Notes under the pieces: model-generated | Database searches by the model: none | Told to the model about the DNA's origin: nothing | What the model saw: only the letters and a program-made list of their open reading frames with translations | Made by a program: the position numbers and the translations under genes | Part shown: piece after piece, positions 3,880 to 5,113 of the stretch | Layout: every line of letters starts with the position of its first letter | How positions within the stretch are numbered: the stretch's first letter is position 1 | Origin: Candidatus Margulisiibacteriota bacterium | Lineage (GTDB): Bacteria; Margulisbacteria; WOR-1; O2-12-FULL-45-9 | DNA length: 5,113 nucleotides | Direction of reading: 5' to 3' | NCBI GenBank assembly: GCA_018817195.1 | Contig: JAHIUL010000082.1 | Coordinates: forward strand, 1-5,113

Positions 3880-4872
3880 ATGTTAATTGTTTGGCTAAAA
3901 TTTATCATTTGCGCTGCGATTATTTTTTTTGCCGGACAAAGACTGACAAAATACGGTGATGCAATTGCGGAGAAAACCGGCTTGTCCCGCACCTGGATAG
4001 GCATTGTTCTTTTAGCAATTATTACTTCTTTGCCTGAAATGGCTAATGGTATTTCCGCTGCGGCAATTGCCAATGTTCCAGACCTGGCCTTTGGCGATAT
4101 CCTGGGCGCCTGCATGATCAATATGTTCAATTTGGCGCTTTTTGATATGTTTTGGAGACTGAGAGGCAAAGGGTCTATTTTTTTAAAGCCTCAGCCAAGC
4201 AATATCCTTTCTGCATTTTTTGGTGTCGTAATGTTGGTTTTTGTTGCCCTGGCACTGTTATTGAGCCGTTTTGGCATTGATTTAAATATATTAGGCATTT
4301 CAGTTTATTCATTAATAATGTTTTTCCTTTTTATGCTTTTTCAGCGATATCTTTTTACCCATAGTAAGGCTGATGAAATTGTGGTTGAAGAAGAATATGG
4401 CCATCTGTCAAATTTTCGGATATATCTAAGCTTTTTTATAATGGCATTGATTGTAATTGCTGCAGGCAGCTGGCTGCCGTTTATCGGCGGTGATATTGTT
4501 GCGGTCATGGGTTGGGGAAAAACATTTGTGGCCGTTCTGTTCTTAGGTTTTGCCACGACTTTGCCTGAGGCGACTGTTTCTATTTCAGCCCTGCGCCTTG
4601 GCGAAATTGGAATGGCCAAAGGGAATTTGTTGGGCAGTAATATCTTTAATGTGTCATTAATATTTTTTGTGGACATATTTTATAGGCAGGGATCTTTGTT
4701 TGCGGCTGTTTCTTCAGGCATGATTTTTGCTGCGCTTTTTGGCGCTGTGCTTATGTTGGTTGCATACGTAACCCTGAGAAAGCGTCTTGTCAACGGTCTC
4801 TCCTCTTATGTCATAATGATTTTATACGTTTTGTCTCTTTTCTTCCTTTTTAAATCCGGCGCACTGTCGTAA
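3880..4872 (+). CDS. Sodium/calcium exchanger-family (CaCA, YrbG-like) membrane antiporter
   Basis: A 330-residue inner-membrane protein, close in length to E. coli YrbG, with about ten hydrophobic segments in two inverted halves. The alpha-1 repeat (about 27-90) contains T49-S50-L51-P52-E53 and then GACMINMFN at 76-84. The alpha-2 repeat (about 210-267) contains T226-T227-L228-P229-E230 and GSNIFN at 252-257. E53 and E230 correspond to the paired glutamates that bind Ca2+ and Na+ in the Methanocaldococcus NCX structure. An acidic, hydrophilic stretch at about 160-180 (HSKADEIVVEEEY) links the halves. The alpha-1 GSN motif is changed to GAC, so one binding-site serine is an alanine. Family membership is clear; the transported ion (Ca2+, Na+ or another cation) cannot be read from the sequence. 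It follows the lipoprotein by 32 bases and probably has its own promoter. Confidence 0.9.
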   Translation: MLIVWLKFIICAAIIFFAGQRLTKYGDAIAEKTGLSRTWIGIVLLAIITSLPEMANGISAAAIANVPDLAFGDILGACMINMFNLALFDMFWRLRGKGSIFLKPQPSNILSAFFGVVMLVFVALALLLSRFGIDLNILGISVYSLIMFFLFMLFQRYLFTHSKADEIVVEEEYGHLSNFRIYLSFFIMALIVIAAGSWLPFIGGDIVAVMGWGKTFVAVLFLGFATTLPEATVSISALRLGEIGMAKGNLLGSNIFNVSLIFFVDIFYRQGSLFAAVSSGMIFAALFGAVLMLVAYVTLRKRLVNGLSSYVIMILYVLSLFFLFKSGALS

Positions 4873-4886
4873 TTTCGACACCCATA

Positions 4887-4921
4887 GTAGAAAGTAGAGA
4901 GTAGAGCGTAGAGCTTAGCAG
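4887..4921. repeat. Left heptanucleotide array (GTAGARV)
   Basis: Four perfectly phased heptamers GTAGAAA, GTAGAGA, GTAGAGC and GTAGAGC (4887-4914) are followed by a degenerate fifth unit, TTAGCAG. The array begins 14 bases after the exchanger stop and is noncoding. It faces an inverted array at 4960-4987. The exact phasing of four units argues against chance composition. Confidence 0.8.
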
Positions 4922-4959
4922 TATCAATTTTTGTTGTTTTTATAGCAATAATTTCCTAT

Positions 4960-4987
4960 TTTCTACTTTCTACGCTCTATTTTCTAA
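4960..4987. repeat. Right heptanucleotide array, inverted relative to the left one
   Basis: The phased heptamers TTTCTAC, TTTCTAC, GCTCTAT and TTTCTAA are the reverse complements of GTAGAAA, GTAGAAA, ATAGAGC and TTAGAAA. Both arrays share TAGAGCGTAGA (left 4903-4913, right complement 4969-4979) and AGCTTAG (left 4912-4918, right complement 4984-4990). As a transcript the two arms could pair into a stem of about 28 bp with several mismatches and wobble pairs, closed by an AT-rich loop at about 4922-4954. No T-tract follows the right arm, so it is not a standard intrinsic terminator. Confidence 0.75.
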
Positions 4988-5017
4988 GCTTGGTAATAAC
5001 ATTGCTACACCCTTAAT

Positions 5018-5032
5018 GTCACAAAGTGTGGC
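5018..5032. promoter_or_regulatory. Small inverted repeat just upstream of the ORF6N ribosome site
   Basis: GTCACA, a three-base AAG loop and TGTGGC form a six-base stem with one T·G pair, ending about six bases before the Shine-Dalgarno. It could be an operator for an autoregulating protein, a small RNA hairpin, or chance. The only support is its position. Confidence 0.25.
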
Positions 5033-5050: not shown

Positions 5051-5113
5051 ATGGGTGAAATAGTTCCAATTGCAAGGATAGAAGGCAAGATCTACATTAT
5101 TAGAGGCCAGAAA
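5051..5113 (+). CDS. ORF6N-domain protein, N-terminal fragment
   Basis: Only 21 codons are inside the window: MGEIVPIARIEGKIYIIRGQ plus one lysine. The EIVPIxxIExKIYxIRGQK pattern is the usual opening of the ORF6N domain, a DNA-binding module of phage antirepressor-like proteins (KilA-N/BRO-associated) also common as stand-alone chromosomal genes in uncultured bacteria and Bacteroidota. The domain normally continues with an MLDxDLAxLYGV motif, which would lie just beyond the right edge. The start is well supported by a strong Shine-Dalgarno. The gene sits directly downstream of the inverted heptad arrays, hinting at a mobile or phage-derived segment. The call rests on a short match, so it is probable rather than certain. 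Confidence 0.7.
   Translation, partial: MGEIVPIARIEGKIYIIRGQK

Follow-up and report, generated by a model that had tools for sequence, protein, structure and literature searches.

Facing heptad arrays as predicted loop DNA between a palindrome and a sigma54-type promoter in a Margulisiibacteriota genome

Multicopy elements of Geobacter metallireducens (classes 1-3 and H4) consist of tandem 7- or 8-mers; in the portion of that report available, they occur as opposite-strand pairs at variable distance, some of them within genes, and its authors suggest that they bind IHF or HU (PMC2700814). REP and REPIN elements, in the excerpts at hand, are dispersed intergenic sequences, found singly or as inverted pairs that form a long hairpin (PMC3733652, PMC3116915), with GTAG as the tag of one REP superfamily (PMC3733652). 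As for enhancer-promoter spacing in bacterial sigma54 systems, the accessible parts of two studies describe natural loops at 61 Vibrio qrr enhancers, whose lengths cluster about 11 bp apart (PMC4740811), and spacers at orp promoters that are bent by IHF or by A/T-rich stretches (PMC3897727). The locus described here joins these two subjects, which are usually kept apart: short dispersed repeats of no settled use, and the DNA that separates a bacterial enhancer from its sigma54 promoter. No description of a sigma54-enhancer spacer built of cruciform or tandem repeats was found in the open-licence literature searched.

We analysed a window of 5,113 nucleotides, contig C188 of a 1.19-Mb draft genome (G000) that is 77% complete. 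Its dihydroorotase-like protein was closest, among the contig loci searched, to proteins of Margulisiibacteriota (74% identity) and WOR-1 (71%). An earlier note on this DNA had marked a hairpin of facing heptamers at 4884..4991, an extent that covers the hairpin and leaves out its conserved flanks (4865-4880 and 4991-5006). The facing heptads fill the 110-bp gap between these flanks, a palindrome and a match to the -24/-12 form of sigma54 promoters, TGG-N8-TTGC. The features are arranged as follows:

3880..4872, plus strand: sodium/calcium exchanger-family gene, upstream, with its stop codon inside the palindrome
4865..4880, no strand: 16-bp palindrome TGTCGTAATTTCGACA, predicted enhancer (activator-binding) site, overlapping the exchanger stop codon at 4870-4872
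4887..4921, plus strand: left heptad array, in which four units match GTAGARV exactly and a fifth is worn
4926..4954, no strand: AT-rich centre AATTTTTGTTGTTTTTATAGCAATAATTT, predicted bend region, which aligns with the centres of other long spacers
4955..4988, minus strand: right array, whose complementary heptads are more loosely matched
4991..5006, plus strand: sigma54-type -24/-12 promoter TGGTAATAACATTGCT, of the TGG-N8-TTGC form
5051..5113, plus strand: start of an ORF6N gene, the first gene of a predicted operon

The left array is exactly phased, as the earlier note had it (GTAGAAA GTAGAGA GTAGAGC GTAGAGC at 4887-4914), and is followed by the worn unit TTAGCAG. The facing array that it had described is indeed present, up to 4988, yet looser than the term complementary suggests: from 4987 along the minus strand, the array runs TTAGAAA ATAGAGC GTAGAAA GTAGAAA ATAGGAA, with an exact fit to GTAGARV in only two of the five units. 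When the two 50-nt arms were compared without gaps, the matches numbered 28, 23 and 23 at shifts of 3, 10 and -4, i.e., one heptad apart, bearing out the proposed slippable stem. Folded as RNA, positions 4850-5020 reached -44.8 kcal/mol, whereas shuffled versions averaged -28.8 (z -4.8; 0/200 shuffles as good), and the 110-bp spacer folded alone gave a z of -5.4 (0/300 shuffles as good). The supposed wealth of G-to-A differences that become G·U pairs proved weak, with G-T/U pairs at 4 of the 36 positions paired across the hairpin middle.

In architecture, the one aspect compared, the repeat resembles the Geobacter elements in having about four or five tandem heptads, paired on opposite strands and present in multiple copies; the Geobacter sequences are different, and the available portion of that report does not describe them as sigma54-enhancer spacers (PMC2700814). 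The array is best accounted for as a dispersed facing-heptad repeat, with a build closest to Geobacter classes 1-3 as far as that portion describes them (PMC2700814). Like REP and REPIN sequences, as excerpted, it is dispersed, forms an inverted hairpin pair and has a GTAG motif in every G000 heptad; an inverted pair able to form a hairpin, the REP/REPIN criterion, is present in the window. Unlike the GTAG- or CGTC-tagged short palindromes that make up REP/REPIN units in those excerpts, the arms in the window consist of heptads in tandem that lack an inner stem, in few copies, and unlike in REPINs, no compensatory changes between arms emerged from arm-swap tests. A REP moved by a RAYT is not supported for G000, in which, at 77% completeness, no Y1 transposase was found; the Y1_Tnp (RAYT) transposase was likewise missing from G009 and present in 14 of the 20 genomes searched. 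The TAACTGA repeats of Beggiatoaceae are likewise abundant intergenic tandem heptads, but in the accessible text they are direct repeats (one indirect repeat is mentioned), with another sequence and beside other genes (PMC4679880).

A full-length copy of the window element lies on contig C162 of G000 (82% identity over the 128-base query) and a third copy on C186. Window, C162 and C186 have conserved ends in common: the left array is preceded by the palindrome TGTCGWAATTTCGACA, and the right array is followed by TGGTAATAACMTTGCT. The latter matches the TGG-N8-TTGC form, and we assign 4991-5006 to a sigma54-type promoter with high confidence. Since the end of the window and contig C221 have 123 identical bases in common, the predicted operon can be followed onto C221, where it continues with a 144-aa T2SSC-like protein and then a secretin. 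The 144-aa protein has no Pfam match; it is homologous (26-47% identity) to first genes behind other palindrome-promoter pairs, and one of these homologues matches T2SSC, below the Pfam cut-off. On contig C165, G000 further encodes rpoN (with Sigma54 AID, CBD and DBD domains) in a cluster that also includes a REC + Sigma54_activat + HTH_8 protein, a prepilin peptidase and another REC protein, whose Sigma54 domain is weaker.

The GAFTGA loop is usual in Sigma54_activat proteins. The second REC protein (L166:5680-6957, on C165), which stands beside the activator, appears on reading to be without it, and scores 72.7 bits for Sigma54_activat vs 247.7. Its gene is preceded by a sigma54-type promoter at C165:5301, which has no palindrome.

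We extended the search to a family set of ten genomes, i.e., G000 and nine relatives (G001-G009). Allowing at most one mismatch, the palindrome had 8 occurrences in G000 and 35 more among the nine relatives, spread over seven of them, compared with three forward matches of the reversed pattern in all ten; at this threshold it was absent from G004 and G005. It was not enriched outside the family (6 matches vs 7 for the control in 47 genomes). A sigma54-type promoter was located 30-156 bp from 38 of the 43 palindromes, 37 times in the strict form, and three of the five palindromes without a promoter lie near contig ends. By comparison, 34 other loci, with 128,994 strand-bases between them, contained two strict promoter motifs. 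The sole non-strict promoter among the 38, with TCGC, is that of L210, which was picked by eye, the scan having slightly preferred a site on the opposite side (17.2 vs 17.4). Conversely, the promoter pattern TGGYAATRANNTTGCT gave 116 matches in the ten genomes and none when reversed; 61 of the 115 distinct promoters had a palindrome, and with four pairs that hold a less strict promoter, the palindrome-first and promoter-first searches together yielded 65 pairs.

Pairs were accepted at 9 of 10 half-site letters, or at 8 with 12 of 16 letters overall, which left out L293, L307 and L318 (8 letters each). At least 9 half-site letters agree in 54 of the 65, and the 11 pairs with 8 letters may hold chance matches, because 141 of 2300 shuffled upstreams reach 8. 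By this threshold 54 of the 115 promoters are without a palindrome, including all 25 of G004 and G005 (L252, L306, L308 and L312 among others). Upstream of some G004 promoters lies what may be a variant site, GTCCG...TTTCGACA.

The first gene behind the pair is of pilus or DNA-uptake type in 35 of the 65 cases (TopA 7, YraN 6, SSB 5, T2SSC-like 5, PilC 5, one of them standing behind an IVP gene, ComEA-like 4, PilB 3). The others are ORF6N (13, the window included), 23S-rRNA-IVP (5), Y1_Tnp (5) and PDDEXK_3 (4), with one YhcG, one REC-Sigma54 activator and one gene without a label remaining; in G007, a REC-Sigma54 gene (L212) has its own palindrome and promoter, 39 bp apart. Labels were transferred by BLASTP from 36 labelled proteins, some of which had been labelled by reading (topA, some ORF6N, Y1_Tnp). 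Proteins that we take to be FolC-like, MazG-like, AmtB and GlnA, and also the YraN at C48, owe their labels to reading of the sequence, with no search behind them. Judging by these first genes, the palindrome-promoter pair appears to mark a pilus and DNA-uptake regulon, and an uncultured lineage thereby gains a defined, predicted regulon of this kind.

Of note, the Y1_Tnp (IS200/RAYT-like) genes of G002 (L185, L191, L192, L194, L321) come immediately after the kind of palindrome-promoter pair that also precedes pilus genes, and so do ORF6N and 23S-rRNA-IVP genes elsewhere. All three are accessory genes that may be tied to a DNA-uptake state.

The distance between palindrome and promoter falls into two classes, short spacers of 19-41 bp (n=23) and long spacers of 62-165 bp (n=42), and both serve orthologous genes. 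TopA has spacers of 20, 40, 109, 110, 133, 142 and 158 bp, SSB of 29, 40, 111, 154 and 156 bp, and ComEA-like genes of 29, 109, 110 and 111 bp; orthologues of the window operon (T2SSC-like/secretin) carry the pair at 19 (G003), 109 (G008), 126 (G006), 143 (G009) and 144 bp (G002), compared with 110 bp in the window, where ORF6N is in front. Short spacers prevail in G003 (4/4), G001 (5/6) and G007 (11/13), and long ones in G002 (12/12), G006 (8/8), G000 (7/8), G008 (7/8) and G009 (5/6).

Long spacers share a 7-bp period. Among lags of 4-12, the best self-match fell at 7 in 53 of 80 long-spacer arms vs 14 of 223 control pieces, with a mean lag-7 identity of 0.425 vs 0.284 in shuffled arms; by genome, lag 7 was best in 12 of 24 arms of G002 and in neither of the two of G001. 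The words themselves, taken by reading the spacer sequences, differ between genomes: GTAGARV in G000, AGTTGTW in G006, G007, G009 and at one G000 site, GGTTCTR in G008, and words other than these three in the long spacers of G002. The strict form of the AT-rich centre, TTTT-N8-18-AAAA, occurs in 19 of the 42 long spacers, where shuffling gives 2.1 on average and 7 at most, and in one of the 23 short ones; 12 of the 19 belong to G002, and the window centre is without a match to this form. In relaxed form, with near-duplicates kept and no null, the centre lies 38-41 (16 cases), 46 (1), 50-52 (6) or 59-63 (4) bases from the promoter, and its mean position is biased because the match nearest the spacer middle was chosen. 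Spacer lengths are helically phased overall, with a period of about 11.5 (2/4000 jitters as good), as are those of the short class (0/4000); among non-redundant long spacers alone, phasing was not significant (367/4000, or 159/4000 with a stricter half-site).

These pairs resemble the qrr and orp systems, as far as the available portions describe those, in consisting of an activator site, a spacer and a -24/-12 promoter, with discrete lengths and a bend site or A/T-rich DNA in between (PMC4740811, PMC3897727). They differ in that the long spacers are facing heptad arrays and in that the spacing varies among orthologous genes, being 20-40 bp at some and 100-160 bp at others.

In several genomes, and with unrelated words, the arrays lie face to face on either side of the spacer centre, and the pairing itself might be at work: either the arrays would form a cruciform, or the two limbs would be bridged by a heptad-binding protein, and the enhancer would thereby be held next to the promoter. 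Shuffle folding tests, which covered all 42 long and 10 of the 23 short spacers, are in part consistent with this. At the 1% level, 19 of the 42 long spacers fold better than their shuffles and none of the 10 short ones does, the long-spacer counts being 5/7 in G000, 5/5 in G009, 2/2 in G007 and 4/7 in G008; at L147, moreover, an unrelated GC-rich stem reaches up to the promoter. However, only 1 of 12 long spacers of G002, 2 of 8 of G006 and 0 of 1 of G001 do so, and in no more than 7 of 28 cases does pairing between the two spacer ends surpass shuffles at the 5% level. The outcome that the earlier note had named as a refutation, copies that do not preserve the inverted arrangement, is thus seen in part, namely in G002. 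The compensatory changes that it had also looked for were not seen: swapped arms that share a word fold as well as true partners (1896/5000, 2316/5000 and 2/6 permutations, and 639/5040 in a further set), with G009 alone coming nearest to a signal (6/120), and the complementarity therefore stems from both arms using one word. In addition, orthologous promoters have spacers of 19-41 bp that contain no arrays. Altogether we consider a working hairpin or protein-bridged zipper rather unlikely; the cruciform as working form was rejected on the negative arm swaps and the mostly unpaired G002 spacers. A bolder version, in which the entire pilus and DNA-uptake regulon moved from 20-40 bp spacing to 100-160 bp loops with mirror limbs of a genome-specific heptad, whose closing would align matching heptads for pairing or for a bridging protein, also strikes us as unlikely.

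The same hairpin could instead act in RNA, keeping the exchanger message stable at its 3' end or serving as an RNase III substrate, as the earlier note had proposed. In favour of this, the hairpin comes after the stop codon of the exchanger gene, on that gene's own strand, its RNA fold is a good one, and 19 of the 28 long spacers examined come after a same-strand gene. Yet the strong hairpins at L144, L199, L205 and L210 adjoin a gene on the opposite strand, so that no upstream message ends there. The gap from a same-strand gene to the palindrome ranges from -5 to 316 bases, and position therefore follows the palindrome and promoter rather than the stop codon; the expected transcription start of the -24/-12 promoter, furthermore, lies downstream of the hairpin. 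Lacking arm covariation and any Rfam match at gathering score in five sources, the RNA element was rejected, and we rate it very improbable; nor did any result support the suggested link to the rnc gene.

The earlier suggestion of a dispersed repeat family fared better. In G000, doubled GTAGARV (at most one mismatch, overlapping matches counted) had 35 matches vs 13 for the reversed pattern, and exact pairs numbered 15 in G000 and 0-4 in each of 15 relatives. Other words are dispersed in the relatives: GGTTCTR pairs number 36 in G008 vs 2 in the other nine genomes, and AGTTGTW pairs occur in every one of the ten and outnumber the reversed control in nine of these. The palindrome-promoter pair was missing from all 22 off-promoter loci that were examined. 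Arrays thus occur where no enhancer exists, and therefore need not serve a promoter at all, which raises the prospect of a REP-like repeat that lodged in tolerant intergenic gaps as a neutral passenger, with no effect on the promoter. In keeping with this, 14 of 20 AGTTGTW off-promoter loci, hand-picked among the matches listed with facing pairs favoured, carry tRNA genes, and arrays also lie inside reading frames. Against it, three long G000 spacers, about 330 of 1,190,844 bases, contain 11 of the 35 GTAGARV pattern matches, and arrays occupy most long spacers of five genera, which is hard to achieve by chance insertion. We thus judge a purely neutral passenger to be quite unlikely.

The reading that we favour, and hold to be probable, is that the facing heptads are the duplex loop DNA of a predicted sigma54-type enhancer that switches the ORF6N / T2SSC-like / secretin operon. 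It builds on the family-wide palindrome-promoter pair, the short or long spacers at orthologous genes, the 7-bp period with genome-specific words, and the dispersal of these words. An NtrC/PilR-like activator would bind the palindrome at 4865-4880, the candidate being the REC-Sigma54-HTH_8 protein encoded beside rpoN on C165. An HU/IHF-like protein, for which the HU-family protein at L155:293-589 is a candidate, or an intrinsic bend would fold the spacer near its AT-rich centre, enabling the activator to reach the promoter across the DNA loop and switch on the operon. The arrays would have entered as a dispersed REP-like repeat and been retained where their spacing let the activator reach the promoter, the long hairpin then being a by-product of how the repeat is built and copied, and not the working form. 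That the arms have a role beyond filler is a tentative proposition, to which we lean slightly less than to its opposite. Since the same genes (topA, ssb, yraN, comEA-like, T2SSC-like/secretin) stand behind spacers of 20, 30, 40, 110, 130 and 155 bp, with at least three heptad words, the loop-DNA role is testable.

The surroundings of arrays away from the promoters varied. AGTTGTW arrays lie beside or between tRNA genes at L223, L225, L226, L228-L236, L238 and L239, several as facing arrays in tRNA-tRNA gaps, and two of ten G000 array loci have tRNA genes, one of them 10 bases from the array. GTAGARV arrays are found inside intact long reading frames at L018 ~1776 (397 aa) and C135 ~5704 (L021; 259 aa). 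GTAG-tagged mini-hairpins, often closed by CGTG or CGTC, were observed inside AGTTGTW arrays (L200, L225, L226, L230, L232, L234, L144); a perfect mini-hairpin followed GTAG in 17 of 127 cases in the 20 picked AGTTGTW loci, whereas control loci had 4 among 295 and the AGTTGTW spacer loci 3 among 96. Finally, single GTAGARV arrays at L010 ~1734-1761 and L011 ~834-861 end in purine-rich AGGA/GGAGG just before a start codon, and the repeat may therefore supply a ribosome-binding site there.
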